Translations under genes and position numbers: made by a program
The notes under the pieces: model-generated
The model's database searches: none
What the model was told of the DNA's origin: nothing
Seen by the model: only the letters and a program-made list of their open reading frames with translations
NCBI RefSeq assembly: GCF_018446385.1
Contig: NC_056001.1
Location: 7,769,600 to 7,833,599 of the forward strand
Length of the DNA stretch: 64,000 bases
Direction of reading: 5' to 3'
Origin: Zingiber officinale
Lineage: Eukaryota > Streptophyta > Magnoliopsida > Zingiberales > Zingiberaceae
Part shown: piece by piece, positions 40,741 through 63,965 of the stretch
How positions within the stretch are numbered: the first letter of the stretch is position 1
Layout of the letters: each line of letters starts with the position of its first letter

Positions 40741-40747
40741 ATAGGTA

Positions 40748-41898
40748 ATGGCAAACGAGTGGCCACGGGAACCCTTGCTCCCGGGGTTACTAAATCCTCC
40801 TAAGCAGCCAAAAAAGGAGAGCATGGTGAAGAGGAAAAAATTCTTTCGTAGTAGAAGTGCCCCATCGGTAGACCGTTCGTTGGTACCTATGGATGTAGTT
40901 CATGACAAATTTCCTGGTCCACAGTTAAGATCGGGTTATTTTTGCCCGAGTTTTAAGAAAGTTGCTCTTTTCTTGGTCATCTACCTTGGCGCAGGTGTTC
41001 TTTGCTTTTATCTTGTGAAGGATCAACTTTCCGGGAAGAAAACAAATGGAGTGCTTGATGCAATATACTTCACCATTGTGACAATGACCACAGTTGGTTA
41101 TGGTGATCTGGTTCCAAACAGCACTGCTACTAAACTTCTGGCCTGTGCATTTGTGTTCACAGGCATGGCGTTAGTCGGTATGTTGTTGAGCAGAGCTGCT
41201 GACTATCTTGTCGAAAAGCAAGAAGTTCTTCTATACAAGGCCTTGCATATTCGTGAAAAGGATGGTGAAGCACACATGATGCAACACATCGAAACAAACA
41301 AAGCGAAGTATAAATTCTATACCGCGGCAATGTTTCTCGTGCAAATGGTCTTAATTGGCACGGTGTTTCTGTGGAAAGTTGAGAACCTAAATCTTGTTGA
41401 TGCCTTCTACTGTGTTTGCTCTACGATCACGACACTAGGATATGGAGACAAGAGCTTCTCTACTGAAGAAGGTCGAGTTTTTGCGATTTTTTGGATCGTG
41501 GCTAGTACTATATGTATGGCTCAGTTCTTTCTGTATCTTGCCGAGATATATTCTGAGCAGCGCCAGAGAAGGCTAGCAAAATGGGTCCTAACCAGGAGAA
41601 TGACATATGTGGATCTTGAAGCAGCAGATTTAGATGAAGATGGAGCTGTGGGGTAAGCAATGCATCTAATTGATCCTCTGTCAATGTAGAGATTGTTTCA
41701 ATGATCATCGGTTCGGTTTAAAACGTTTTCTGAAATGGTTGTAGTGCGGCGGAGTTCATAATTTATAAGCTGAAGGAGATGGGGAAGATCAGCGAGCAGG
41801 ATATCGCAATCGTGATGGAGGAATTTGAGGATCTAGACGTCGACCACTCGGGTAAATTAACAACAAGTGATCTTGATGTTGCACAATGTGATCGATAG
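40748..41898 (+). CDS. TPK1: Two-pore potassium channel, TPK type (vacuolar)
   Basis: A tandem-pore K+ channel; dimers form one K+-selective pore, in Arabidopsis TPK1 in the vacuolar membrane, opened by Ca2+ and 14-3-3 proteins. Exons: 40748-41652 and 41745-41898, giving 352 aa. Order of parts: a basic cytosolic N terminus with the mode-I 14-3-3 site RSRSAP at 34-39; first membrane segment about 71-90; pore filter TTVGYGD at 114-120; second segment about 128-148; third segment about 190-209; pore filter TTLGYGD at 228-234; fourth segment about 245-266; then two EF-hand loops at 294-305 and 333-344. The second loop ends in Asp instead of Glu, which may lower its Ca2+ affinity. The intron lies inside the first EF-hand, as in other plant TPK genes. 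Confidence 0.95.
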
Positions 41899-43489: not shown

Positions 43490-45732
43490 ATGGCCAATTC
43501 TTCCGACCCTTCTCCTGGCCTCTGGTATCAAGCCATGGAGAGTCGGTTTGACTCGGGAGATGCCTCCAATCTGATTAATGCTTATGGCATTCCTGCCGAC
43601 CACAAGCTTACCCTGGCCGAGCCGTCCGATCGACCCCACGATCCGCCGGTCGGTACTTTTACTTTCTTTCACGACCAATTCGTAGCTGGCCTTAGGTTTC
43701 CCATCCACCCCTTCATCATAGAAGTGTGTAACTACTTTCGCATTCCGCTCAGCCAGCTTGTACCCAACTCCTTCAGGCTGCTGTGCGGCGTAGTGGTGCT
43801 CTTCCGAGTGCATAACATCCCCCTTAAGCCCCAGATTTTTCATTATTTTTACTATCTCAAATAGTCCGAGATAGACACCTTCTTGTTTCAGTCTCGGATC
43901 GGCTTAGTTTTCTTTGATAAAATGTCTACCTCCAACAAGCACTGGAAAGACTATTTTTTTCTTTTTGAGTTTTCCTGAGTCGTCACCTTTCCGAACTCAA
44001 TGGCAAACTGCTCTGCCACCTCCCCCGACCTGAAAAGGTATAGGACCGAGCCCGCTTTTCTCCACGCGGCCAACCTACTGGCCGGGCTGAAGTTAGACAT
44101 CCACAAGTTGTTGCCCGAGAGATGTTGTATCTGTTCGGTTTAAGTCCGATCCGAACGCAACTTCCGAACGGCCCTGGTAAGAAATAACTTTCTCTACTTT
44201 TCTTTGGGTCTAACTGATTTCTTTTCTCTTTCTTGCAGCTGTCACCATGATGAAATCAGTGGTGCTCGGCATGCTAAAACGCAAGGCTGACGAGATAGAG
44301 GCAGCTGCAGCGCAGGAGGCGGAGAGACTTGGCATCGCCCCGGTCGGCTCTCATGAAGGTGAGAGCGAAGAGGCGCAAACGGCGAGCGATGCGTCTGCCG
44401 CTAGGACTGCCACTACCGATGCGGCAGGAGAGACCGCTCCGTCGGGTACTCAACCGGCCATTCAGACCGAGGAAGCCGGGTCTTCTGGTGACGAACTTCC
44501 ATTGGTTGGACGCAAACGCCGCCGAACGGGCACCCCCACTCGCTCAGCCACCTCAGCCGTTCGCGTGTCCGAGCAGACAGACATTCCCCCTCCGTTGGCT
44601 CCCTCGACGGTGGAAGCAATATCTTCCGATCGGACTCCCTCTCAGGGTGATTGGCCTTCTGACCCCATCGTCGTCCAACCCCTTAGGACCCTCCCTCCTG
44701 CTCAACATAAAATTAAGCGATCTCTTATCCGCTCTAATCCGATCGGCCAGTCCTCTGTCCCTTCAGCCTCTGCTCAGTCTACCCTGGGCGGGCAAAGGAT
44801 TATCAAGGCTATATTGCATCTTCCGACGGAGGAAACTCAGCGGACGACCGACCGGCCAACGGGCCCCGAGCACCAGATAACCATCCGGGGACCCCTGGTG
44901 AAGGACTGAGAGGACGCTCGGGTGCGCGTTGCTTTGATGCCTCCGGGGCTGCTCGGCGACAGCCACATACAACAGGCCACTGGGGTAACTCTCATTATAA
45001 CCTTCTCCTTTTCGTTTCGATCCGGCACTGTCCCTTTCCCTTCCGATCTGGTTGCAGTATTAGGTGGAAAGTATTGCGGTAAACAATCGCCTGACGCTCC
45101 TAGAAGAGGAGTTCAAAAAGCTCAAGGTCTCTGGTTGGGCTCCCCCTCAAGGCCCCCCTTACGTCGTGTTAAAGGCGGAGCTTGACAAGACCAAGAGACT
45201 GCTGGAGGCCGAGCAACACAAATCCTCTGGCCTACAAACTATGGTGGATCGGCTCCAGACCAAGGTTAAGACCTATGACAAAAAGATCGAGCAGACCAAC
45301 ACCAGAAAGAATAGGGCCATCACCGACCTAGAAGCAAAGAATGTTGAGGCTCGAGCTCTCGAGCAGAAGGTCAAGGAGTTAACTGATCTGCTCACCGCCG
45401 AGAAAGCGGGCCGCTCGGCGGAGGTGATCGCTCTCCAGGATGACCTGAAGACCGTTCAGGATGCACTTGAGGCCTCCCGAGCCGCCCTAAAAGAATATCA
45501 GGAGGCCGAGCCGAGCCGGTTCGCTGTCATGCAGCAAAACTATATTCGTTCGGAGAAGTTCGTAGAGAAAGCATGCGCTCGGCTTGTCCATGCGTTCGAG
45601 CTGGTCATCACTGTCATGGCTGACTATCTGAAGACAAAGGGCCGCCTTCCTAAGGATTTCACCATTCCTGTCCATGACCATGCCGAGCTTCTCACCACGA
45701 TCCCTGATGAAATTTTTACTTATCTAGAGTAA
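43490..45732 (+). pseudogene. Antisense accessory gene of element B ('gypsy-type transposon' domain)
   Basis: The best preserved copy in the window. An N-terminal part (about 43.5-43.86 kb) resembles the plant 'putative gypsy type transposon' domain (PF04195), with phrases GLRFPIHPFIIEVCNYF and QLVPNSFRLLCG. An acidic Ser/Thr/Pro-rich middle follows (about 44.25-44.9 kb), then a coiled-coil end (45.06-45.73 kb) with long runs of Lys, Glu, Ala and Leu. Two introns with GT-AG ends lie at about 44177-44238 and 44985-45057. The second is also visible in elements A and C. The role is unknown. The copy is not fully open, with a few breaks. Confidence 0.7.
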
Positions 45733-45999
45733 AGTTGTTGATATGTACTGGTCGTTCGGCCTGTTTCATTGCATGTATTCGCCGTTCAGCCTATTTTGAT
45801 TAATGCACTCTTTTGGCCTTCCATTGTTTTCCTGTTCAATTGTTGTGTATATCCAAGCGAGTTACATGTTCCCTAGATCACTACTGAATTCGTGAGAACC
45901 TCTACTTTATACCTCCAAGCTGCTGCTCGACAATCGAGTACAAGACCACCTCTTTTCCGTAGGACCTGTCAGGTTGAAGCTATGCCAAGGCTGAGCTTT

Positions 46000-46240
46000 A
46001 TTGTCGCCGCTCGACTCTGTCGTTTAACGTCGCCGCTCGACGGTCTTCAGGTCGGTGGGTTAATAGTCACCGGTTCGACTCTAGAGTTTAACGTCGCCGC
46101 TCGACGGTCTTCAGGTCGGGGGTTTTATAGTCGTCGGTTCGACTCTAGAGTTTAACGTCGCCGCTCGACGGTCTTCAAGCCAAGGGATTTATAGTCGTCG
46201 GTTCGACTCTAGAGTTTAACATTGCCGCTCGATGATTTGA
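46000..46240 (+). repeat. Tandem array of 64-bp units in element B
   Basis: About three and a half units contain TTTAACGTCGCCGCTCGACG and GGTTCGACTCTAGAG. Read on the other strand the unit resembles that of element C (GAAGACCGTCGAGC, GACGTTAAA, CTATAAA). It lies between pol and the accessory gene, as in element A. Confidence 0.85.
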
Positions 46241-46690: not shown

Positions 46691-47242
46691 CTTGTTGGGA
46701 CCGAAAAGTAGCTAGAGGGGGGGTGAATAGCTCATCGCGTGCTCGTGGTCGGCGTTGCTTGTTTCTTCAAAGATATGCAACGGAAATACAAGAAACAAAA
46801 ACACGCAACGCTAACAAGGATGGTTTACTTGGTATCCACCTCACAAGAGGTGACTAGTCCAAGGATCCACACCTACTCACGCACCCTCTACTATGAAACA
46901 CTCCTTTATGGTAACTACCAAAGGCGGAGAAGCCCTACAAGACTCTCAATACAAGAAGAAAGGGAAAGGTAATGAAATACAAGCACAAGCTTACAACGAG
47001 TACAAAAGCCCTAACCCTAGCTTCTTCTTCTTACTTTTGATCCGCCTCTTGACTTGGAGGAACCTCCAAGAACCTTCAAGAACTGGCGATCTGGAGCTTA
47101 GTGAGAGCTGTGGAGTTGCTGGTGAAGATCGTTATTGAACAGTAGAAGTTCTACCGAAGAAGAGGCACGCCAACAGCCTTTATATGCGCCAACGGTCGGA
47201 TCCCGATCGATTGGATTGCTCCCAATCGATCGGGGAGGCTTT

Positions 47243-47520
47243 GGATCGATCCATGGATCGATCCAGAGCACCTCTGTGCTCTGGAAATTCGCCTGGATCG
47301 ATCGGCTGATCGATCCAGGGCTTATCGCGACATACAGCACCTTCCCAATCGATCAACTGATCGATTGGGACTCTAGATCGATCGGCTGATCGATCCAGAG
47401 ACATTCTGTGCGCTCGCGACTTCCTCCCAATCGATCCAATGATCGATTGGGATGAAGGCTCCTCGCAGGGACACCCCAATCGATTGGGCTCCAGCCAATC
47501 GATCGGTTGATCGATTCGGC
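47243..47520. repeat. Cluster of ATCGATC palindromes in the E2 LTR
   Basis: At least six inverted repeats share the core ATCGATC/GATCGAT around a 4-base loop. Perfect examples are 47344-47369 and 47426-47451 (11-bp arms beginning CCCAA) and 47292-47319 (12-bp arms beginning CCTGG). A 22-bp perfect palindrome lies at 47243-47264. Loops differ (AACT, CAAT, GGCT). Related units recur inside E2 at 49058-49167. Confidence 0.85.
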
Positions 47521-47564
47521 TTCTAGTTTTTGCCCAAAACCAAGTCCCAAGCCTCCCAAACAAA

Positions 47565-48085
47565 CATCCGGTCAACCTTGACATGTTGATTTATCATGCC
47601 TAGCATCCGGTCACCCTTGACCTGCTAGGACTCCCTCATCAAGTGTGCGGTCACTCCCTTTGACCCACTTGGACTTTTCTTCATCTTGCCAAGTATCCGG
47701 TCACTACCTTGACCTACTTGGACTTTCACTAGATGTCTGGTCAACCTTGACCCATATGGATCTCCTTGTGCCTGGCTTCACCCACCAGGACTTCCCTTCT
47801 GCCTGGCTTCACTCACCAGGTCTTTCACCTAGCTTCACTCACTAGGATTTTCACCTGGCTTCACTCACCAGGACTTTCACCTAGCTTCACTCACTAGGAT
47901 TTTCACCTGGCTTCACTCACCAGGATTTTCTTCTGCCTGGCTTCACTCACCAGGACTTTCACCTAGCTTCACTTACTAGGATTTTCCTCACTGCCTAGCT
48001 TCACTCACTAGGTCTTTCCTTCTGCCTAACATCCCAGTTAGGACTTCCCAGTCAAGTATCTGGTCATCCTTGACCTACCTGACTC
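47565..48085. repeat. Hairpin array with covarying stems in the E2 LTR
   Basis: Two classes of unit follow each other. Long-loop units have a TCCGGTCA...TTGACC core flanked by complementary arms that differ between units: CCTAGCA/TGCTAGG (47599-47629), CCAAGTA/TACTTGG (47689-47721), TCAAGTG/CACTTGG, and weaker ones. Short-loop units have a CTTCACTCA loop flanked either by CCTGG/CCAGG or by CCTAG/CTAGG, about nine copies from 47771 to 48012. A last unit has CCTAAC/GTTAGG. Both arms change together. Confidence 0.85.
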
Positions 48086-48184
48086 TTCTTCAATCAACCT
48101 TGTATTGTCAAATATCAAAACCCAAACCAAGACTCAAGCTTGGTCAACCAGGTCAACCTTGACCTGAGGGATGTTGCACCAACA

Positions 48185-50533
48185 ATCCCCCCCTTTTTGA
48201 TGTTTGACAATACCAACACTATCACTTACAATACCACATGTAAGTTAGGCTAATCCCATAGCCTAAACCTTCTTCATGCCACTAGGTAATGAATACATAA
48301 GTTAAGCCCTTCATTCTCCCCCTAAGAGGGCAAACTTCCTCTAGGTAATGAAAGCCTAATTTACTCCCTTTCATTCTCCCCCTATTGGCACACATCAAAC
48401 CATGCCCCATTTTTGGACACACATCAACAAATTCACTTGTTGAAAACTCTCCCTCTGAAGAGTTGCTCATCGTTGTTCACAACTTTACTCGTTGTGATCA
48501 ACACGATAATGAAGGTCTTATACCCTTCATTATCCTTAACCCTACATTCTCCCCCAATGTAGGCAAATGCCCATCCTTGAGCAATATCCACTGGAAACCA
48601 CTTGAACAATGAGGATATCCACTCCCCATTAAAGTTCAAATGCTCAACCTTGAGCATGTTCTTAACGGAAGGTTAACCACCTTCCAAGGTTCATGAAAAA
48701 TAATTTTCATGTCTTTAAAGAGTCACTCTCCCTAAAGACATGGTGGTAACTTCTGTCACTGCACCAACAATGACTTGGAATCCCTAAAACTTTAGGAAAC
48801 CCAATTTTAGAAGTTTTGAGGTTCAAATATTCAAAATTTGAAACAAACTTCAACCTAAACTTCAACTTAGCCTTCCTTAACCAATTCATCCTTGTTTTCC
48901 ACATGAAAACACCCTTTTTATGTATACAAATGTATTTTCAAGGGTTTGGAATGGTTACCTAGACTAAAATAGGTTCAAAGATGCTGAAATCAGGCCATCC
49001 CAGTCAAAATCAGCAACTTGGATCGATTGGAGTTGGGTTCCAATCGATTGAACCTTGCTGAATCGATCCACTGATCGATTCAGGAGGGCTGGATCGATCG
49101 GTGGATCGATCCAGGAAGCTTCCGTTCGCGAGAAGCTTGCTCTCAATCGATCGCCCGATCGATTGAGACCCTTCAATCGATCGGAGGTCTGATAGTTGCT
49201 GAAATTTACTTTCTGTGAATTTCAGAAGCCCCTAGAAAAAACTACAAAATTCTAAAAATCGTAAAAATTTGTGTAGACATTATTTAGGGTATATACTATC
49301 AAGGAAAAATAGCTTTCTAAGAAAATACTTCATATTTTCAAAGATTGACACAAACTTGAAACCTTATAAAAACTTTAGTATTTTCTTCAAGTTTGTGTCT
49401 AACTATTCAATGGTGATTACTATCAAAAGATAGCCTTCACCAAGGTTTTCCAAAATCATTTTAAAAACATTTTCAAAACCAATATCCCACCATGCTCCTT
49501 GGGCTTAATGCACATGACTTGTACATTAGCTTTCCCAATGATGGGAAAACACATAACTATGTGTTTTGATGAACTCAAAACAAAAAAAATGCACTAAATC
49601 AACATCTTGAGTTTTGTTCATCATCCTAACATCTCACTTGTATCTAAAGTGCACAAAACACATACAAGTCATCTTATAGGTCTTTGTGAGATGTAAAGTT
49701 TGGTTTTGCCCTAATCTAGGGATCATGCATATTTATCTAGGCATTTTGTAGATATTGGACATCCACCTAGGATGTCACTTGTTGATACACTTGTACCACT
49801 TGTTACCACTTGTTGGTAGCACTTGTTGGTACTTGTTGATAAATGTCATTTGTCCTTAATTTTAAGGAAATAAACATAATGCATGATAATGTTATGGCAT
49901 ACATCAAAACGAAATAATTTTCAAAAGAAAATTTCCTATAACTACATGTTGTATGTATGGCATGACATGGTATTTTTGTATTTTCATAATAAGGCATGAA
50001 TGCAAAAATAAAACATGATGTCATGGCATATAATGGGCAAACAATCATGGCAAGATTTAGCATAAATAAAATATACCTACATTATCTATCTAAGTATCCT
50101 TAATCATGGCTAATCCTAAAACTTAAACCCTAGATTGCCCAAAGTGCTTCAAGAAAGTGCCAAAACCTAAATTGACATTTCTAATTCTCTTGATTAATTT
50201 ATGTCAATTGAAATTAAGCATATTCCTCAAGTGTTGGCATATTTCATTTTTACACAAGAGTAGCACTTTAAATTAAGGATTAAATTTGCCTTTAATTTCC
50301 TAAGAACATACCAAAATCCCAACTTGGTAGTTCTCATGATTTCCCAAATTGTGCCAAATAAAATTAAAATCATCATTTTCAATTTTGACACACTTTACTC
50401 TTCCAAAGAGTAAATGATAAATCTATTTCATTTTCAAAGGTTGATAATAACCTTGAAAATGCTCCTTGAGTGTCAATTTCTTCAAAGTTGGGTTAACTAC
50501 CCTTCTTCTTAGAGTTGACACTCTCTAACCCAT
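48185..50533. other. Internal region of E2 without a recognised gene
   Basis: This 2.3-kb stretch lies between the polypurine tract and gag. Most of it is AT-rich and carries only short frames of no coding character. It holds three 26-bp ATCGATC palindromes at 49058-49083, 49089-49114 and 49142-49167. In autonomous copia elements this position would hold pol. Confidence 0.6.
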
Positions 50534-52213
50534 CTATGGGGTAGAGAAAATGCTCCTAGGAACCCAACGCATATTGGTGCTCCTTGGATGCTCTAGGTAT
50601 TCACTAGGGATAACTTCCCTAGATACCTTCCTAGTAACCTTGTTTGGCTTCTTAGAAGCCTTGATCACTTTTTCTAGGTCAATCCTAGGGATTACTTCCC
50701 TTGTGACCTTGTTTGTGACTTTCTTAGACTTCTTAGAAGTCTTAGTCACGTTTGTGATTGCAAAAATATTTCTAGGGATAACTTCCCTTGTATCCTTGAC
50801 TTGACCTCTAGACTTAGGATTGGTTCCATAGCTATATGGAACCCTATGGTAAGTAGGTACATCCTTTTTGATTTTAGGTTTGTATCTCAAACCTCTATGA
50901 CCCTTGGATGACTCTTGTTGTCCTAAACCTAGATTTTGCTCACTTTGCCCTTTAAGGATATTTTTCATCCTTTTTAGGGTCTTTTCTAGTTTGTCAAGTC
51001 TTGACCTCAAGACTTGATTTTCCATCACTAAGTCCTTAGGTTTTGGTTTTCCATTAAATCCATGAGCATTTTTGTTTCTAGGCTTGTAGCTAAAATCCTT
51101 AGAGTTCTTGCTTAGACTTTTATCTACATTCCTAGCCCTAGGTGTAGTGGTCTTAGCATGAAAAGCTATATGTTTTTCCTTAATGCTATCATGCTTCCTA
51201 TTTTCATGGTAAATAGCATTAAAATGATATAGATTAAAATTAGCATACTTTTTACCATAATTTAAAGGGGTAGGCTCAATGAAAGTTACCTTTCTTTTTA
51301 CTTTGGAGGCTCCCCCTTGAATTAAGCTTCCTCCTTGAACCTTGACCACCTTCTTCCCCTTTGGGCATTGACTTCGGTAATGCCCCTTTTGATTGCAAGA
51401 GAAGCACACAATGTGTTCCTTGCTCTTCTTTGTTGTGGGGATGGTCTCCTTGGGCTTTACCTTGCCCTTTAGTGCCACTTGGCCCTTTTTCTTGGCCAAT
51501 TTAGGGCACTTGCTCTTGTAGTGCCCTTTTTCCCTACACTCAAAACAAATAATATGATCTTTATTATTTATTAAAATGTTTATACCTTCATGTGTAGGGA
51601 CGGCACTTGCTCCTCCATTTGACTTGGAAGTAGAGGCTTCCTCTTGATCCGAGGATGATACTCCACCATTTGATTTTGCTTGACTTGTGGAGGTGGAAGC
51701 CTCTTCCTCCTCTTCTTCTCTTGACCCGGATGTAGAAGCTTCTCCTTCTTCTTGATCCGGCGTCACCAAGGATTGCTCCCCCTCAATCCTAGAGGTGGAG
51801 GCTTCATCATCTTGTACATGGAACAAGGAGTATGCTCCCTCCTTGTTCCCTTCATTGCATTCCCTCAAAGATGAAGCTTCTTCTTGGACTTCTTCTTCTT
51901 CAGAAGTTGAGCATCTCTTAACTTCGGAATCCTCCTCTTGATCTTGCTCCAATGAGTCGCCCTCTTTGGATTCCTCTTGATTCGGCACAGTGGAGGGGAT
52001 CTCATGAATAGTTGTCAACTTGCTCCAAAGCTCCTTGGCATCTTCAAATTGTCCAATTTGAGCCAAAATGTGGCTAGGCAATAAGTTGACCAAAAGCTTG
52101 ATCACTTTATCATTTGCCTTGCTCCTTTGAATTTGCTCCGAGCTCCATTTGCTTTTCTTGAGGACTTTTCCCTTGGAGTTTGATCCGGTAGTAAGAGCAG
52201 GGGGCCCCGCCAT
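50534..52213 (-). CDS. gag-like frame of E2 with two zinc knuckles
   Basis: A 559-codon open frame on the minus strand. The N-terminal part resembles the copia gag fold (KWSSEQIQRSKANDKV, FEDAKELWSKLTTIHE). An acidic Glu/Ser-rich stretch follows, then two CCHC knuckles (CFECREKGHYKSKCP and CFSCNQKGHYRSQCP), then a basic, repetitive C-terminal half with REVIPR phrases. About the first 11 codons come from the LTR of element C, which inserted here. The frame is long and open, so it is either recent or constrained. The true gag start is not in the window. Confidence 0.75.
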   Translation of the reverse strand: MAGPPALTTGSNSKGKVLKKSKWSSEQIQRSKANDKVIKLLVNLLPSHILAQIGQFEDAKELWSKLTTIHEIPSTVPNQEESKEGDSLEQDQEEDSEVKRCSTSEEEEVQEEASSLRECNEGNKEGAYSLFHVQDDEASTSRIEGEQSLVTPDQEEGEASTSGSREEEEEEASTSTSQAKSNGGVSSSDQEEASTSKSNGGASAVPTHEGINILINNKDHIICFECREKGHYKSKCPKLAKKKGQVALKGKVKPKETIPTTKKSKEHIVCFSCNQKGHYRSQCPKGKKVVKVQGGSLIQGGASKVKRKVTFIEPTPLNYGKKYANFNLYHFNAIYHENRKHDSIKEKHIAFHAKTTTPRARNVDKSLSKNSKDFSYKPRNKNAHGFNGKPKPKDLVMENQVLRSRLDKLEKTLKRMKNILKGQSEQNLGLGQQESSKGHRGLRYKPKIKKDVPTYHRVPYSYGTNPKSRGQVKDTREVIPRNIFAITNVTKTSKKSKKVTNKVTREVIPRIDLEKVIKASKKPNKVTRKVSREVIPSEYLEHPRSTNMRWVPRSIFSTP

Positions 52214-53037
52214 GGGAAGTCAACGCCACGTGGAAGCCATAGTGGCAGTCGTCCGCCCGGAGAGGGCAGGGTCCGACCGGACGTCCGACCGGCCGATGGA
52301 ATCGAACGCCCGGAGAGGGATGGGTCCGATCGGCTTGCCGAACGGACGATATACGGCTGATGGTTAAAGGCGCCCTGTCGAAAGCAGGGTTCCGGCGCTC
52401 AAGGGAGAAGGTCGTGGGCCGAGCGGACCCCACGCTCGGCCAAAGCCATAAGGTAACACTGCTAATAGTCCCCATAAAGCATGTGATGGAGAATCTCCCA
52501 AGTAAACCACCGCATAGGTCCGGCCGGATGTTGAGGGAGTTGTCCGCCCGGACTCTAGATCTGGAGCAAAGGGGAAAAGGACAAGGGGGAAAAGGACAAG
52601 GGAGGTCTTTTTCTGACAGCAGGTATGTTTCACGTGTAGGCCATGCTCCAAATCTTGTGACAGGGGATTCTGCTGTCCCATCGAGGACATGCTTTGACTG
52701 TAGCGGTATGGGTCAGGTGAGCTTTCTGACAACCGCGTACCGAGGAAAGGATAGAGGACACATATGCACCTCGGTATGCGTGCCCTAACCCTTCACAACT
52801 CTATATAAAGAGCCTCAGACTTCGCCGGAGGTACGCATTCTGAGACTTTGGGAGCCACCTTTTTCATCGTTGCTTACCTGACTTGAGCGTCGGAGGGTCG
52901 CCGCCGGGAACCCCCCTCCCCGGCTCAACTTCTGTGCAGGTTCGCCGGAGCTTCGTTCTAGCAGTTGAAGAGCCACGTCAGTAGTCGAAGAGTGCTCCGT
53001 GCCCAGCGTCCATTGATTCAGCCTTCGGACAGGATCA
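52181..53037 (+). repeat. 5' LTR of element C
   Basis: About 857 bases from TGATCCGG to GGATCA, close in length to the LTR of element A and sharing the ends GATCC/GGATCA and the phrase CCACGTGGAAG. A clear promoter, CTATATAAAG, starts at 52801, about 235 bases before the LTR end. Confidence 0.75.
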
Positions 53038-53390: not shown

Positions 53391-54175
53391 AGCGGAAGAC
53401 CGTCGAGCTCCGACGTTAAATATCGAGAGACGGACCAGCGTCTATAAATAATCCGAGCGGAAGACCGTCGAGCACCGACGTTAAATATCGAGAGACGGGC
53501 CGGCGTCTATAAATAATCCGAGCGGAAGACCGTCGAGCTCCGACGTTAAATATCGAGAGACGGGCCGGCGTCTATAAATAATCCGAGCGGAAGACCGTCG
53601 AGCACCGACGTTAAATATCGAGAGACGGGCCGGCGTCTATAAATAATCCGAGCGGAAGACCGTCGAGCTCCGACGTTAAATATCGAGAGACGGGCCGGCG
53701 TCTATAAATAATCCGAGCGGAAGACCGTCGAGCTCCGACGTTAAATATCGAGAGACGAGCCGGCGTCTATAAATAATCCGAGCGGAAGACCGTCGAGCTC
53801 CGACGTTAAATATCGAGAGACGAGCCGGCGTCTATAAATAATCCGAGCGGAAGACCGTCGAGCTCCGACGTTAAATATCGAGAGACGAGCCGGCGTCTAT
53901 AAATAATCCGAGCGGAAGACCGTCGAGCTCCGTCGTTAAACATCGAGAGACAGCGGAAGGCCGTCCGAGCGGAAGACCGTCGAGCTCCGACGTTAAATAT
54001 CGAGAGACGAGCCGGCGTCTATAAATAATCTGAGCGGAAGACCGTCGAGCTCCGACGTTAAATATCGAGAGACGAGCCGGCGTCTATAAATAATCCGAGT
54101 GGAAGACCGTCGAGCCCCGACGTTAAATATCAAGAGAAGAGCCTGCGTCTATAAATAATCCGAGCGGAATATCGT
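53391..54175 (+). repeat. Tandem array of about 65-bp units, each with a TATA-like motif (element C)
   Basis: About 12 units, most more than 95% alike, read GGAAGACCGTCGAGC, GACGTTAAATATCGAGAGAC, then GCCGGCGTCTATAAATAATC. The TCTATAAATA motif recurs in nearly every unit. One unit near 53930-53970 is irregular. The array lies between gag and the antisense gene and is related to the array of element B on the other strand. Confidence 0.95.
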
Positions 54176-54499
54176 CGAAGCTGCGATTATCCGTATTCTC
54201 CGCCGATATCGTTCGACCGATTCCAAGTTCCGCTCGGAATCAAGGCACAAAGGTTCTGGTCGGTTTATAGTGAGCGACTCTTGATAGCAATACAGAATGA
54301 TAGTCGTCCGATCGGAAGGGCTTGGCATATGCCGAAGGTAGGATAATAGGCGAGCGGGTAACACACATATTAGCAAAGGGACAAAGTGCAAGAAGATAGA
54401 ATGCACGAATGGAAAGAATTTCATTGAAATTAAAACCTTGGGCCGAGTGGCCTAAGTACAAAAAGGTTCATATTCAGCCGAGCGGCCAAATTACAAGAA

Positions 54500-55735
54500 C
54501 TACTCAATATAGTCGTAGAGGTCCCTCGGAATATTGCTCAGGAGCTCCACCTGATCGCCGGCTGGAATATTGGTGGACTCCGGAAGAAGGCCCTTCGACT
54601 TCAGATAGGTCATGGTGGCCGTAATGGCCAAGTCGAAAGCTGAGTACATCCGCTCGCAAATTTTCTCCGAGAAGTCAGGCGATCGGATGTGGTTTTGTCG
54701 AAGAGCAGCCACTCGACTCGGCTCGGCATCCTGGTATTCTTTGAAGGCCCCCTGGGAGCTTGTGAGGGCCTCATTCAGATGCTCAATCTTCTCCGTGTCG
54801 GCCGAGCGGCCCACCTTCTCCCGGTCAAGCTGCTCCGTCAGCTCCTTTATCTTCAACTCCAGGCCTCTGGCCTCAACATTATTTTTCTCCAGGTCGGAGA
54901 TAGCAGTATTCTTCCGAGTGGTGGCCAGAGTTATTTTTGTGTCAAGCGACTTGACTTGTCGCTCGGACTCGATCAGGGCGTGGGCCTGATCAGCTGTTTT
55001 CTTCTGCTCGGCCGCCAGCAAAGTTTGAGTTTTCTTCAGCTCCTTTTGTAACTCGGCGTACGAGGGGCCTTGAGAGCCGCTCGGACCGCCTGCCGCCCGC
55101 AGTTGCCTTATCTCCTCGTCCGCCATAGCCAGGCGGCTGGAAACCGCTATCTCTTCCACCCATCTCTGAAGCAAGAAGGCACAGTTGTTAAAAGCCGAGC
55201 GGAAAAATTACAAGCGAAACTTTAAAAACGAACTTACCCCCGTAGCCTCCCGCATGTGGCTGTTGGCTAAGTTCCGAAGGGGGATCATTGCAACTCGCGC
55301 CCGAGCGTCGGCCCACATCTCGGCTAGGGGCCCTTTCAAAGTAATGGTGTGCTCGGGCACGGTTGGTCGATCGGCTTCTGGTAGCAACTCTTCAGTCGGG
55401 AGATGAAGAGTGACCCGTATTGTGCGGCCGTGACCAGGGATCGCTCGACCAGGATCAAAAGCCGGCGCGGAAAACCGCGAATGGATGGTCGAGCGTTGGA
55501 CTGAATGGCGAGCAGGGGGGAGAGTGTTGACCGGAGTGGCCTCAACCGGAGCAGTCAGCTCATCCCAGTCAGAAGGAGTCCGGTCGGACGAAATGGTTTC
55601 TGCCATAGGCGCTTTGCCTCTAGCAGTCTCGGCGACCCGGTCGGAGGGTTGGACCGCTGAGGTAGCCGAGCGCAGCGGAGTCTCCACCCGGCGCCTCTTT
55701 TGCAGGGGTTGTTCCTCCTCCCGAGCGGACCCTTC
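54500..55735 (-). pseudogene. Antisense accessory gene of element C, 5' part cut off
   Basis: On the strand opposite gag. The coiled-coil end (about 54.5-55.17 kb) and the Ser/Thr/Pro-rich middle (about 55.2-55.7 kb) match element B in order and in phrases (AISDLE, NVEARGLE, AEPSR, ISSDRTPS). An intron of about 60 bases lies between them, near 55172-55235, at the same place as in elements A and B. The N-terminal domain is missing because element D interrupts the gene at 55736. Confidence 0.7.
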
Positions 55736-56812
55736 TGTAAGACCGTTAGATTCGATAGAGGGGGGGTGAATATCGATTCGAAAATCTCGAGTTAAGACGC
55801 AGCGGAAAAGTAAAGAAGTAAAGAGATGAACACTGTTGATTTTTACTTCGTTCGGAGCCTGTGACGACTCCTACTCGAAGGCCCGTACTCCTTGAGTACT
55901 TTCGTTGGGAAATTCACTAGCAATTCGGATAATTACAATTTACGTACAAATATTGCTAATGAAAAGAAAGAAAACAAAGCTAACCGACAAACAATGAATT
56001 AAAAAGAGAGCCGGAGTGAGTCGTCGGAGCTTTGTGAACGTCGTTGGAGCGCAGAGCAGCGAGTGATTGGACTCGAGTTCTCGAAGCGATATCATGAAGC
56101 TCCTGCACAGGGCTTCTTTATATCTTTGCCGGCGCTGGATCCCTTCCGGCGCCCGGAATGTGACGTAACACTCCCAACCAGCATGCTCCAAGTATCAACG
56201 TCGTCCGGGGATAAAATTTGCCTCCGGCGCTGGATCCCTTCCGGGCCGGATCCATTCTCCCGCAACAGTGTTAGTCCGAGGCAAATAAACCTGCAGCACA
56301 GTTTGTTAGCACATTTATAGATACGCTAAGTAATAAAAATTAGCATCAAGAGTATGACTTAGATTCCGTCTTTCCGAGACCGGAATCTAGTCACGATCTC
56401 GACTTAGATATCCGAAATGGATCTAAGCCGGATCGACGCCTAATGTTCCCTTCCCGGGAACGCGTCCTCGCAGTCACTCCCCTCCAGTGACTTACCTTAC
56501 TTACCTGCCAGACGTCCGGTCAGCCCGTCGACCCGTCTGGACTTCTTGCCAGCTATCCGGTCAGCCCGTCGACCTAGCTGGACTTCTTGCCAAGCGTCCG
56601 GTCAGCCCGTCGACCCGCTTGGACTTCTCGCCAGCTATCCGGTCAGCCCGTCGACCTAGCTGGACTTCGTGCCAGACATCTGGTCAGCCCGTCGACCTGT
56701 CTGGACTTCTCCTGCACACTCGATCAAAGTGTCAGACAACAACACAACTAACTTAACCTATTTGTCATTCATCAAAACCTGGGTTAGACCGTTAGTGCTA
56801 CCCGCACCAACA
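55736..56812 (-). repeat. 3' LTR of element D
   Basis: About 1.08 kb, TGTAAGACCG to CACCAACA, next to a purine tract (AAAAAGGGGGAGA on the minus strand). A TATAAAG box on the minus strand lies at 56116-56122. The phrase GGCGCTGGATCCCTTCCGG occurs twice (near 56132 and 56225). A hairpin array occupies 56508-56704. The ends of the LTR match those of E2 (CACCAACA, and the GGGGGGGTGAATA phrase near the start). Confidence 0.85.
56508..56704. repeat. Hairpin array with covarying stems in the D LTR
   Basis: Five units at a spacing of about 41 bases share the loop TCCGGTCAGCCCGTCGACC (one has TCTGG). Their 7-bp stems are CCAGACG/CGTCTGG, CCAGCTA/TAGCTGG, CCAAGCG/CGCTTGG, CCAGCTA/TAGCTGG and CCAGACA/TGTCTGG. 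All are perfectly complementary although four different stems are used. Two more short inverted repeats flank the array (TCACT/AGTGA near 56474-56490 and ACAC/GTGT near 56715-56733). Confidence 0.92.
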
Positions 56813-58177: not shown

Positions 58178-61100
58178 CTAGTCTATTGAGCACATCCCTA
58201 ATCGTCGTCGTAAGTTGCTAAATTCACTCTCAGGGAGTGGTTTTGTAAAAATATCAGCTAAATTTGATTTAGACTCAATGTACTTGAGTTCAATATCACC
58301 TTTAGTAACATGATCCCTGATGAAGTGATGCCTAACTTCAATATGTTTGGTTCTTGAATGATGTACAGGATTCTTGGTTAAGTTAATCGAACTTATATTA
58401 TCAATTAATACTTTTACATTTGTGATATTTAAGTTGAAATCTTTTAGAGTATGCATCATCCATAATATTTGTGCAACACACTCGCCTATAGCTATGTATT
58501 CTGACTCAGTTGTAGATAGTGCAACACAGTGTTACTTTCTACTAAACCAGCTGACAAGGGATGGACCAAGTAGTTGGCATCCACCACTTGTGCTTTTGCG
58601 GTCTAATTTGCATCCGGCATAATCTGAGTCAGAATATCCTATTAATTCAAAGTTGTTGGTCCTAGGATACCAAATTCCTACATTTGTGGTTCCCTTGAGG
58701 TATCTAAAGATTCTTTTGACTTGAGTCAAATGAGATTCTTTAGCACAGGTTTGGTATCGAGCACACATACTAACTGCAAATAAAATGTCAGGTCGGCTTG
58801 CAGTTAGGTAAAGTAGACTACCTATTGCGCTCCGATAATGTTTTAAGTCTACTGCTTTTCCATTAGGATCATCATCTAGGATTGTGTTTACGGCCATAGG
58901 TGTTTTTATTTCTTTAGTGTTTTCCATTCCAAATTTTCTAAGTAATTCCTTAGTATATTTTTGTTGATAAATATAATTTCCTTCATTTGTTTGTTTGACT
59001 TGTAACCTTAGAAAATAAGTTAATTTTCCTACCAGACTCATTTCGAATTCGTGTTCCATTAGGTTTGTAAATTCGTTTAAAAACTCTGAGTTTGTTGAAC
59101 CAAAGATGATATCATCTACATAAATTTGAGCTATAAAAATATCCTCTTTTATTGATTTCACAAATAGTGTTGGGTCAATTTGACCTTGGTTGAACTCTTT
59201 AGAGGTTAAGTAAGAGGTTAGTCTTTCATACCATGCCCTAGGTGCCTGTTTAAGTCCATATAATGCCTTTTTTAATTTGTAGACATAATCAGGGTGTTCT
59301 AGGCTTTCAAAACCTGGTGGTTGACCTACATAAACTTCTTCTTTTATCAATCCATTAAGAAATGCAGACTTGACATCCATTTGGTATAGTTTGAATCCTT
59401 TATGGGCTGCATAGCTTAGTAACATTCTAATGGACTCTAGTCTAGCTACCGGGGCATAAGTTTCATCGTAGTCAAGTCCTTCAACTTGACTGAACCCTTT
59501 GGCAACTAACCTGGCCTTGTTCCTAGTAATTTCTCCAGTTTCACTTAACTTGTTTCTAAATACCCATTTGGTTTCTATTATTTTCTTATCGTTAGGTGGA
59601 GGTACTAGGTCCCAAACTTCATTGCGCTCAAATTGAGCTAATTCTTCTTGCATAGCTATGACCCAGTCTGGGTCAAGTAGAGATTCAGCTACAGTTTTGG
59701 GTTCAATATTTGAGATTAACGAGATTTGACTTAGGTTTCTGAAAGATGACCTAGTTTGGACCCTCAGGTCTGGGTCACCAATTATTTGATTAGTAGGATG
59801 GTTTGGGTTGACTCTTATGGTTCTAGGAGGTTGACTTTCTTGTAGTTGTTCTTCTTCTTCATGATTTTGGGTTTGGTTTGTTCCCTCAGAATTGATATGT
59901 TCGTGAACAGAGTCAACTGGTTGAGGTTGGGCTTGTTCTAGGTTTTGATTGGATTCTTTGAATTTTACATTGGTGGTTTCCTCAATTCTTAAAGTAACTT
60001 TATTATAAATTCTGTAGCCTCTGCTATTCAGAGAGTAACCTAGAAAAATTCCATTTTCTATTTTGGAAGTGAATTTGCCTAAGTGTTCTCTAGTATTTAG
60101 GATAAAGGCTGGGCAACCAAATACCTTAAAGTATTTTATATTAGGTTGTTTGTTGTAAAATATTTCAAAAAATGTTTTATTGTGTTTTTTGTTTAGTGTT
60201 GTTCGATTTTGTACATAGCAGACTGTACTAACAGCTTCTGCCCAAAAATATTTAGGTAAGTTGTATTCATTTAGCATAGTTCTAGATGCTTCAAGTAAGG
60301 TTCTATTTTTCCTTTCTACAATTCCATTTTGTTGGGGAGTTTTAGGGCAAGAAAATTCATGATGGTAGCCATTTTCAAGGCAAAATTTATCAAAATTATG
60401 ATTTTTAAATTCTCCTCCATTATCACTTCTGATTCTTTTAATTTTTATGCCTTTTTCATTTTCAATTTGTTTGCAGAAATTTGTAAAAATTTCAAAGGTT
60501 TCATCTTTATTTTTTAAGAATTTGACCCAAGTGAACCTAGAATAGTCATCTATTATAACTAAACAGTATAGACTTCCATTTATTGATTTGACCCCATGGG
60601 AGTCAAATAAATCTAAGTGTAAAAGTTCTAGGACTTAGTTGGTTTGGGATTCATTAATTGGTTTGTGGGTAGATTTTGTTTGTTTGCCTTGTTGACAAGC
60701 ATTACATATTGTTGAATCTAAGTTAGGTAATTTTGGTAAGCCTCTAACTAGACCATTTAATTTACTTATGTTTCTGAAATGTGTGTGTGACATTCTTCTG
60801 TGCCATAACCAGGTTTCTTCTTTTTGCGTTAAATAACACTTGACTGAAGAGGTGGTTAAGTTGATGGCATAGATATTGTCTTTTCTAAAGCCTTTTAGGC
60901 TTATAGTTGGATTATCTACATGTTTGATCAAACATTCTGAGGATAGAAATTTTACCTTATACCTAGTGTCACACAATTGACTTATACTCAGAAGATTGTA
61001 TTTAAAATTTTCAACAAGTAGAACATTTGAAATTATGAAATCTATTTTTAATTCAATATTACCTATACCAATTACCTTGAGTTTACCGTTGTTTCCAAAG

Positions 61101-61183
61101 GCAACTGTTCCTAGGCTTTTGTAGGTTAATTGAGTGAACTTGGTGTGATCTCCAGTCATATGTTTGGAGCAACCACTGTCCAA
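58178..61183 (-). mobile_element. pol region of element D
   Basis: Copia order is clear on the minus strand. From the right: the protease active site (MDSGCSKHMTGD); the pre-integrase zinc region (WLWHRRMSHTHF, CNACQQGK); the integrase end ([23 protein letters not shown]); the reverse transcriptase ([38 protein letters not shown]); and the RNase H end (TKHIEVRHHFIRD, DIFTKPLP). The domain set is complete, with few breaks. Confidence 0.9.
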
Positions 61184-61239
61184 AATCCACTTGGTTTCCT
61201 ACAACAAGTAGGATTTTTATGTTAGTCTTAGTTTATCAA

Positions 61240-61545
61240 TTTTTAAATTTTAAATTTTTTTTTTTGAATTTTGAAATTGATTTTTAAGTTTAAAATTAAA
61301 ATTTTGAAAATAATTTTTAAGTTTAAAACTAACATTTTGAAAATAATTTTTAAGTTTAAAATTGAAATTTTGAAATTAATTTTTAAGTTTAAAATTGAAA
61401 TTGAAATTAATTTTTAAGTTTAAAATTGAAATTTTGAAAATAATTTTTAAGTTAAAATTTTGAAAATAATTTTTAAGTTTAAAATTGAAATTTTGAAATT
61501 AATTTTTAAGTTTAAAATTGAAATTTTGAAATTAATTTTTAAGCC
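61240..61545. repeat. AT-rich tandem repeat between gag and pol of element D
   Basis: About ten imperfect copies of a 30-36-base unit built from AATTTTTAAGTTTAAAATTG and AAATTTTGAAA. Copies differ by small gains or losses. The position, within the spacer between gag and protease, is unusual for a copia element that must express both. Confidence 0.85.
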
Positions 61546-62076
61546 TTATTCATCTCACCCGATCTATATTATCAATCAGGGAATCCTATGATTTTGTGAG
61601 ATGAAATTAGATTTTTAATTATGGAGTTTTGGTTTAACGTGTGTTAGATTCAGATTTAGTTTTGGTTTCCACAAATAGGCATTCTTCGGATAAATTTCTA
61701 AGCTTGGTGAGTCACATGGACATCATTAGAAGTAACCAACCTTTCGAAGTTTTCCGAATAGTCCTACCCACGGAACTTAGCACTAAATCTTGGTCTAACT
61801 GGTTAGGATTCGTTTAAGGGTAGCTTCGGTCAGTTCCACTTGGCCAAATGCACCAGATCGAAGCCATATCTTTCTAGACATGCGATGCCCAAGCTTCCCT
61901 AACGTACTATCATCCAAAAACTTCACCAGTACCATGAGTCAAGTTAAACTTGGTCTCTTTTTAACTAATCCTAATTACCCTGCCGGGTTAGTTTGTTTTG
62001 GGTTACCCTGTCGGGTAGGTTAGTTTTGGAGGTGCCAGCTATTCTGGAGCCTCCCCCTGAATTATTGGCCATTAAT

Positions 62077-63760
62077 TTAGATTTTGGGTTTGTGTCGATT
62101 CTTTTTATAGTTATAATCAACTTGGTGATAATCTAAATTTTGTTGAGTTTTGAATTTTGATTTTAATTTAGATTTATATTTTAGTTTTTGATCTGATTTA
62201 TTCAAGTTTATATAATGTATTTTATCTTTAGGTATATAGAATTGATTAAGTCCTACTTGCGTGGTTAAGCATGCTTTCGGGACCCAAGCTTGTTTAGTTG
62301 CTTTGTGTTGGGTTAATAATGATTTAAAGGTTTTGTTTGAGTTTGACTTATATCCAAGTCCGGTTTTATTATAGCATGCCTTTTGGTTATTTAGAATTAA
62401 ATCTAAATTTTTAGATCTTGTTGTGAATTTTTCCAACAATTCTTTTAACTTATTAATTTCATTTTTTAATGATAAATTCTCCTCCTCAAGTGTTCGATCT
62501 TGAGTTGGATTCAAATTTTTTAATTGTTCCTTGAGGTTTTGATTTTCCTCAAGAAGCGATTTATTTTTATTTTCCAATTTAACTAATTTTTTATTTAAAC
62601 ACGAGATAATTCTAAAGAATTTACGATTTAAGTTTAGGTATACCTCTTCGGAACCTTCGGAAACGAGTGCGGACTCGTGGCTCGATTCGGGTTCGGACCC
62701 GTCTTCCGATTCCTCTGATTCGTCTTCTGTTTCAGCTTCGCGAGCCATCAGCGCGAGGTGACTTTGGTGCTTTTGCCTTTCTCCTTCCGATTCGTCTGAG
62801 GAGGAATCGTCCCATGTTGCTTTGAGGGATTTCTTCTTTGTTGACTTTGGTTTGTCAAGTTTCAATCTTGGGCATTCGTTCTTGTAGTGCCCCTTTTTGT
62901 TACATCCGAAACATGTGACATTTCTTGAGTCGGCTGGCGAACTGATCTTCTGAAGATCCTGTTTGCTGAAGCTTCTCTTTTTCCTGGTGAACATTTTCCT
63001 TACCAGGTTCACCAGGTGTTCTTCGTCTTCAGAGTCTTGATCGGAATCTTCTTCAGATTCGGGCTTGTTCTTCTTTTCTTTAGAGGAACCTGCAAATAAA
63101 GCTACACCTTTCTCGACCCCGGCGTTAGTTTGCTCATGAAGTTCTAATTCACAAAAGAGTTCATCCAATTTTAATTTAGATTAAATTTTTTGAAATTTTG
63201 TAAGCATCTACGATTGATGCCCACAAATTGTTTCGCGGAAAAGCATTTAACGCGTACCTGATTAAGTCTCGGTTCTCCATTTGGTGGCCTATCGCGTGGA
63301 GACCGTTGAGGATATCTTTGACCCTCGCGTGGAGCTGACTTGCCGTTTCTCCTTCCTGCATTTTTATATTAAAAATTTTATTTAACAGCAAATCTCTTTT
63401 TGTTACCTTCGCGTCGCTTGTTCCTTCGTGCAGCTCGATCAGTTTATCCCAAAGCTCCTTAGCGTTTTGATGCGGTTCGACCCGGTTCAGTTCTTCTCGT
63501 GTTAGTCCGCAGTGTAGAGTATTGATGGCTTTGTTTTCAATTGATGCCTTTTTCTTTATATCATTTGTCCAGTCTTCAGGGTCTACTATGTTCCCGGAGT
63601 TGTCTACTGGAATTTTGTAAGCCCTTGTGACGCTCATCCATTGGTCGTAGTCTGTCTTCATGTAGACCTCCATTCTCCTCTTCCGATACGAAAAGTCATC
63701 CCCGTTGAATAGGGAGGACGTCATCTTGAAGCCTTCTTGTTGAGACATCTTATCCTGCAC
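62077..63760 (-). mobile_element. gag region of element D
   Basis: On the minus strand: a copia gag N-terminal part (DDFSYRKRRMEVYMKTDYDQ, LWDKLIELHEGT), a CCHC knuckle (CFGCNKKGHYKNECP), acidic Glu/Ser stretches and a coiled-coil part rich in Leu, Lys, Glu and Asn, ending in a basic tail. It resembles SIRE-type gag in order and size. One break at most is seen. Confidence 0.85.
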
Positions 63761-63965
63761 ACACTAAATTAACTGGAAAAAAATCCCAAGACTTCGTCTT
63801 GGATTAGCAGTCTGGGAGAAATAGAAACTCTAAGTTGGTGTTGTACCAATTTAGATTTTAAATGCAACGAGAAAAAATCTTCCAAAAAGATAATAATATC
63901 AGTTTGGAATTGTTAAAAAATGATTTCACCCCCATCGATTGGTGGTTGCACCAAATCGAGGCGAC

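Follow-up and report, generated by a model that had tools for sequence, protein, structure and literature searches.

An array of hairpins with co-varying stems around a constant loop in the U3 of Sirevirus-type LTRs of Zingiber officinale

Palindromic structures were reportedly described by Bousios et al. (2016) in the LTRs of the maize Sireviruses Ji, Opie and Giepum. Such palindromes abound in the Sirevirus LTRs of plants, and their function is not settled. Their arrays, with their placement and variability, are already in print (PMC2829016, PMC5311732 and PMC10760457, in the parts available). According to the accessible part of PMC2829016, the RM boxes are palindromes repeated in tandem ahead of the TATA box, within the upstream half of the LTR, with further copies in the linker; each element has one consensus, the boxes are usually >85% identical, and nearly all have a CGG-CCG core. 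The same text gives as Sirevirus hallmarks a poly-C signal some 21 bp short of the LTR end, a TATA box placed around the LTR's middle, an AT/TG attachment site, the polypurine tract AGGGGGAG directly ahead of the 3' LTR and an inverted repeat spanning that junction. Many small RNAs map to the LTR palindromes of maize Sireviruses (PMC10760457, in part).

We analysed a 64-kb stretch of ginger DNA (the window) in which a preliminary description had noticed hairpins with a constant loop and swapped stems. Judged by the sequence hallmarks in the available part of PMC2829016, the window contains two LTRs that are Sirevirus-type. Their main features are as follows.

46693 to 48184, sense strand minus: LTR1, 1492 bp, Sirevirus-type Ty1/copia, with TG...CA ends on the minus strand
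47179 to 47184, minus strand: TATA box of LTR1 (TATAAA), at LTR position 1001 of 1492
48187 to 48193, minus strand: terminal polypurine tract of the element owning LTR1 (element 1), GGGGGGG on the sense strand, followed by AT and then the LTR
50534 to 52219, minus strand: gag-like frame of element 1 with a zinc knuckle (Pfam zf-CCHC, 3.9e-08)
55736 to 56812, minus strand: LTR2, 1077 bp, the second Sirevirus-type LTR, with TG/CA ends and AGGGGGAG-AT ahead of it
58532 to 63763, minus strand: copia-type pol and gag frames of the element owning LTR2, with Pfam domains

LTR1 is a 3' LTR: the interior of element 1 starts at 48185, and no 5' mate of LTR1 was found within the 64-kb window. It has AT ahead of it, a purine tract, a TATA box and a poly-C 24 nt from its end; the poly-C lies at the same distance in LTR2, and in both LTRs a TATA sequence lies near the middle (LTR2 has candidates at positions 494 and 691 of 1077). 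At the AT/TG attachment site both LTRs read ...GAT followed by TGTTGG. The polypurine tract of LTR2 is exactly the AGGGGGAG of the Sirevirus definition, and that of LTR1 reads AGGGGGGG, one letter away from it. An inverted repeat flanks the junction of polypurine tract and 3' LTR in each case, GTCATTCCATCAAAA/TTTTGATGAATGAC for LTR2 and, read by eye, GTATTGTCAAACATC / GATATTTGACAATAC for LTR1. The Sirevirus primer site TATCAGAGC has no exact match within the window, and no 5' LTR was found there either. Copia-type gag and pol are provided by the LTR2 element (RVT_2, 6.7e-73; rve, 4.2e-14; gag_pre-integrs, 1.9e-15; Retrotran_gag_2, 3.1e-16), an assignment by domains rather than by a tree; element 1 has the zinc knuckle and a sub-threshold gag only (Retrotran_gag_2 at 19.6 bits against a Pfam cut-off of 27). 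A blastn comparison of LTR1 with LTR2 gave no match at E 1e-5. No Rfam family matches the window at its gathering score, and on this evidence we rejected a known structured RNA or ribozyme as the identity of the array.

Several other features of the window were recorded. Of the ten copies of a polypurine-tract-like sequence (CTCCCC on the plus strand), two lie in a loop closed by a perfect stem of 7-8 bp.

48541 to 48563 and 51769 to 51791: polypurine-like copies in stem loops

A stem of at least 7 bp is absent at the other eight copies, and we rejected such placement as a general rule. Tandem arrays of 64-65-nt units at 45997-46232 (3.7 copies) and 53391-54186 (12.4 copies) seem, by eye, to be reverse complements of each other, and each adjoins a long open frame without a Pfam match (45064-45732 and 54500-55207). 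A further tandem array with periods of 60-165 nt lies at 22862-23825, and a two-pore potassium channel frame at 40745-41656 has its closest named relative in Curcuma longa (91% identity).

The hairpin array is located in the U3 of LTR1, with six long units spread over 47560-48082 and ten short ones at 47771-48042, where the preliminary description had placed its constant loop with swapped stems. LTR2 shares the hairpin design.

47560-47590, 47599-47629, 47639-47672, 47689-47721 and 47729-47759, minus strand: LTR1 long units A1-A5
47771 to 48012, minus strand: nine short units around CTTCAC(T/C)(C/T)A
48025 to 48042, minus strand: tenth short unit, CCTAAC-ATCCCA-GTTAGG
48052 to 48082, minus strand: long unit A6, TCAAGTA/TACCTGA, 6 of 7 positions paired
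56508 to 56704, minus strand: LTR2 long hairpin units D1-D5, of 41-nt period, each with a 7-bp perfect stem

A long unit is laid out as a 7-nt arm, TCC (or TCT or TGC), GGTCA, 4 to 7 nt, TGACC and the second 7-nt arm; one inner half-site in LTR2 is CGACC instead of TGACC. Both arrays lie upstream of the TATA box, at about 103-625 of 1492 in LTR1 and 109-305 of 1077 in LTR2. Thus, two LTR families without detectable overall similarity share a unit with a 7-bp outer stem, an inner GGTCA/TGACC pair and constant loop edges. The 5' arms of D1-D5 are, in order, CCAGACG, CCAGCTA, CCAAGCG, CCAGCTA and CCAGACA, and across this array 24 of 70 arm sites differ (34%) versus 4 of 190 loop sites. In LTR1 the Watson-Crick pairs of the outer stem number 5, 7, 6, 7, 5 and 6 of 7 for A1 to A6. 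All stems quoted in the preliminary description are correct, with the reservations that TCAAGTG/CACTTGG holds a T.G pair and that the unquoted units at 47560, 47729 and 48052 contain mismatches. GGTCA is unchanged in all 11 long units of the window, and the inner pair is unbroken in five of the six LTR1 units (A1 reads GACA). The short units have stems CCTGG/CCAGG (five) and CCTAG/CTAGG (four) within a 52-nt repeat, apart from the tenth.

We confirm that this is an array of co-varying stems around a constant loop. When the 11 long units of LTR1 and LTR2 are taken together, Watson-Crick pairs occupy 71 of the 77 stem positions, compared with a mean of 44.8 and a maximum of 65 in 200,000 arm permutations; the arms do change together, as had been claimed. 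Within LTR1, own-arm pairing (36/42) is the single best among all 720 arm permutations, and after identical stems are merged 64 of 70 positions remain paired, a figure that 200,000 column shuffles never reached. Of the 116 compensated differences between stems in the window, 25 are transversions. A column test on the aligned window units gave a divided result. Changes on both sides occur in six of seven outer pairs and never in the inner stem, and two-sided-change cells number 20 versus 6.7 in shuffles (none of 500 as high; 0 to 3 when the columns are slid by 1-3); further pair types, however, are not above shuffles (10 versus 10.3). The fifth pair column has three pair types (G-C, A-T and C-G) and is paired in all ten distinct units.

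Folding was likewise divided. Mismatch-free stems of 6 bp with 5-24-nt loops occur seven times in the interval, against a mean of 1.4 and a maximum of 6 over 200 shuffles. The LTR1 array folds with z -6.25 as RNA and -6.93 as DNA, whereas the whole LTR2 array has no advantage over its shuffles (z -1.26), 22 of 200 being as good. The two-step hairpin anticipated from the inner pair is the minimum-energy RNA fold of nine of the ten long units folded; A5 is predicted to form the inner stem only, and A1 is no stabler than shuffles. For the short units of LTR1, RNA folding predicts pairing between units instead of local stems.

A second set of palindromes, the ATCGAT boxes, lies beside the hairpins.

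47202 to 47520, minus strand: LTR1 palindromic boxes, six ATCGATC-NNNN-GATCGAT and single ATCGAT palindromes, immediately preceding the TATA box
49062 to 49168, minus strand: three ATCGATC-NNNN-GATCGAT boxes in the interior (linker) of element 1

Their outer arms also co-vary, both in the window (38/45 pairs versus 23.9 permuted) and among 238 boxes in 60 fetched loci (785/1190 versus 579 permuted, maximum 629 in 1,000). The covariation is weaker than that of the hairpins, and only 56 of the 238 are perfect. The stretch of LTR1 that holds the boxes has an RNA fold z of -12.7.

We extended the analysis to the plant's own genome (3.09 Gb). The LTR1-type loop, sought at one spacing, occurs at least 1,699 times and the LTR2-type loop with free arms at least 35,803 times; the reversed control was found 0 times in both cases. 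The LTR2-type loop is among the more abundant short motifs in this analysis. Together with the arm permutations and slid columns, the reversed patterns rule out chance as the cause. Short-pattern matches in viral and prokaryote collections, which are without plant LTRs, were set aside.

For the LTR1 type we fetched 140 stretches; with one LTR kept per inferred pair, the counts rest on 110 loci. They contain 376 long units, of which 209 have perfect stems, of 12 kinds; in 60 loci with 212 long units the mean pairing was 6.21 of 7 versus 4.41 permuted. Among 100 listed LTR2-type units, 672 of 700 positions are paired (478 permuted), 79 units are perfect and four stems make up 78. As the elements have common ancestry, unit counts are not independent events. 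In LTR1-type loci the stems follow an order: ACCAACA or ACCAATA, CCTAGCA or CTTAGCA, CCAAGTG or CTAAGTG, CCAAGTA (repeated), CCAGATG, the short units and TCAAGTA, whose perfect stem TCAAGTA/TACTTGA (the type to which A6 belongs) is found in 40 units among the 110 loci. The order is kept in 72 of 74 loci having at least two assignable units. From their sequences, then, the stems are a small ordered repertoire inherited by position, which replaces the free, 'barcoded' series of the preliminary description. On the same comparison the window copy of LTR1 fits the genome-wide order, with decay; A5, for example, is CTAGATG/CATATGG at the place where other copies carry CCAGATG/CATCTGG. An ordered, compensated series with a constant loop was not found in the literature searched; its novelty is provisional, with Bousios et al. 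2016 outside the comparison.

Because one loop is common to all the stems, they would descend from one another by two-arm changes. At three array positions, C-G and T-A are switched on both arms with few intermediates: pair 6 of position 1 (CG 33, TA 10, CA 2, AA 1, TG 1; n = 47), pair 2 of position 2 (CG 26, TA 10, CA 2; n = 38) and pair 2 of position 3 (CG 63, TA 10, CA 3, TG 3, CT 2; n = 81). The switched states combine differently across loci, and they therefore reflect at least three events, or have recombined. In the short units, pair 4 is A-T in 206, G-C in 159 and unpaired in 14 of 379. An LTR2-type stem, CCAACTA/TAGTTGG, is a two-arm change of CCAGCTA/TAGCTGG present in 18 exact copies on 10 contigs. 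Each of the three same-position switches is a C-G/T-A transition, a change that is favoured by deamination acting on the two strands, and matched transitions could arise by luck; yet the transversions among the compensated window differences argue against deamination alone. Plain duplication accounts for most short units, which are mainly of two types across copies: because nine of the ten in the window use just two stems in a 52-nt repeat, they may by themselves represent one compensated change plus duplication. For the long-unit stems, plain duplication is rejected.

Pairing is not strictly required, since imperfect stems have spread and one inferred element has an identical A.A mismatch in both its LTRs. 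The imperfect hybrid CCAAGTG/TACTTGG has multiplied to 14 of 142 units in one comparison and 4 of 29 in another. Hybrid units combine the 5' arm of one stem type with the 3' arm of another, as if arms had been exchanged within the constant loop.

An element inserts with a pair of identical LTRs, and whatever distinguishes LTR mates has therefore arisen in the chromosome. We inferred 30 LTR pairs from strand and spacing, not from target-site duplications, and compared mates by nucleotide alignment in 283 well-aligned units; 68 of 351 units, including nine long ones, were skipped as poorly aligned, by which multiple changes could be missed. At 114 of 118 changed pair positions the change was on one arm only, and 2 were compensated. 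All 17 positions in long units were one-arm, with no two-arm change; the short units gave 70 one-arm, 1 compensated and 2 two-arm uncompensated positions, and the ATCGAT boxes 27 one-arm and 1 compensated. Both compensated changes come from lower-identity pairs (87.7% and 86.4%). The result is conservative, because false mates would add lineage differences and bias the count toward compensation. This alignment replaced a count by unit order (21 one-arm, 5 two-arm compensated, 1 uncompensated); in two of the five pairs with compensated changes, positions show that neighbouring units had been mismatched, the other three being taken unchecked. For the LTR2 type, the three trusted pairs among ten tentative ones (97.5-99.0% identity) gave 4 one-arm and no two-arm changes. 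All ten gave 10 one-arm and 2 two-arm compensated changes, the latter in gap-rich pairs of 92.3% and 90.1% identity, no better than unrelated loci (75.9-95.3%). With 2 of 118 positions, resident copies almost lack the compensated two-arm changes that would mark template switching in the chromosome.

Between mates, the arms of long units differ at 17 of 1258 sites (1.35%) and the loops at 24 of 1605 (1.50%). Since arms and loops change alike, hypermutability of stems in resident copies is ruled out, and the arm-loop contrast of LTR2 does not result from higher stem mutation in such copies. Tandem unit number differs between inferred mates (for example, six versus seven long units); therefore, array length changes at or after insertion. 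As mate changes are nearly all one-arm, we infer that compensation arose in transposing lineages and not by frequent arm-copying in resident copies.

The co-varying arms suggest selection for the fold as their best reading, and we think it somewhat probable that the hairpin array is a cis-acting part of the Sirevirus LTR U3 in which pairing is kept by selection in transposing lineages. The selection proposed earlier thus stands as the best reading remaining, tempered by the hybrids and the shared A.A mismatch: pairing is not absolute. In still-transposing lineages, copies with unpaired stems would do worse, so that stem letters would drift only pairwise, and the loop edges would be kept directly. 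Inserted copies, as the LTR mates show, decay without compensation. The structure might act in the genomic RNA, which carries the U3 hairpins at its 3' end; alternatively, it might act as single-stranded DNA hairpins during reverse transcription. The loop edges (TGACC, in inverted repeat) could be the protein-binding part. Array length may be changed by unit duplication and loss, and rare exchange within the constant loop may produce hybrid units with mismatched arms. These observations suggest that the folded shape counts for more in the element than the precise sequence of the stems. A more elaborate form of the idea is rather unlikely: position-specific hairpins, each with its own inherited stem and with neighbours differing so that each folds alone, the stems drifting pairwise under selection for the fold and perhaps escaping sequence-matched small RNAs while keeping the bound structure.

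The same stems could instead arise by arm copying without selection, an explanation that we regard as unlikely yet give the most weight among the rivals, in which a polymerase switches template in a quasi-palindrome and rewrites one arm from the other, at replication or, more likely here, at reverse transcription, restoring pairs automatically. Template switching can generate and mend stems in other systems (PMC8794818, in the portion available), quasi-palindrome mutations occur in yeast (PMC3820800, in part), and copying would account for the abundance of perfect stems among LTR2-type units (79/100). Against it, LTR mates show 2 compensated pair positions in 118 and 0 in 17 for long units, and copying alone leaves a constant 19-nt loop unexplained while the LTR2 arms differ at 34% of sites. 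Copying at the reverse-transcription step, however, would sit in both LTRs, and to such events the mate test is blind. The arm templating suggested in the preliminary description is thus disfavoured in resident DNA; during reverse transcription it would fit the compensation seen in transposing lineages.

Quite unlikely, in our view, is that the units are double-stranded palindromic sites at which a dimeric DNA-binding protein reads the inverted TGACC and its symmetric flanks, the hairpin being incidental. TGACC may correspond to the W-box core recognised by WRKY factors. In favour of this reading, GGTCA is the same in every one of the 11 long units of the window, and a place upstream of the TATA box in U3 suits an enhancer. 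A regulatory role has also been proposed for Sirevirus palindromes (PMC2829016, in the part available). A fixed protein specificity, however, does not predict several mutually matched stems at different array positions, and one LTR2 half-site is CGACC. Descent alone, with a few palindromes duplicated long ago and their arm match inherited without present constraint, fits the small repertoire (12 kinds of perfect long stem among the 376 units from 110 loci, four stems in 78 of 100 LTR2-type units, mainly two types of short unit) and the unconstrained decay of copies after insertion. It is nevertheless highly improbable given three same-position switches poor in intermediates and 25 transversions among 116 compensated window differences.

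Whichever applies, at least 35,803 units with a constant loop and several stems provide many natural replicates in one genome. Stem identity and pairing vary almost separately, so selection on pairing, on stem sequence or on the loop is directly testable, and LTR mates form a built-in neutral control.

The array is related to the palindrome arrays already described for Sirevirus LTRs. The preliminary description knew of no such LTR element; arrays of LTR palindromes are in fact a Sirevirus hallmark (PMC2829016, in part), and what the searched literature did not show is the ordered, compensated series. Set against the RM boxes as given in the accessible part of PMC2829016, the hairpin units agree in being palindromes repeated in tandem and in their place, ahead of the TATA box within the upstream half of the LTR. 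They differ in carrying TCCGGTCA...TGACC or CGACC in place of the CGG-CCG core, in keeping the loop edges and varying the stems where RM boxes have one high-identity consensus, and in beginning about 100 bp into the LTR rather than 200-400 bp. The ATCGAT boxes at 47202-47520 and 49062-49168 resemble the Tnd-1 motif ACAATCGATTGT of that text, which, like them, is without a CGG-CCG core. The LTRs of maize Ji, Opie and Giepum are similar in having a palindrome-rich, sequence-variable U3 with strong predicted secondary structure and many mapping small RNAs (PMC5311732 and PMC10760457, both in part). The RNA hairpins attributed to template switching by Monttinen and Loytynoja (2022; PMC8794818, in the portion available) belong to RNA genes, whereas resident copies here are almost without compensation in the LTR-mate test; nevertheless, the two systems are alike in their perfect stems, compensated changes and conserved loops.
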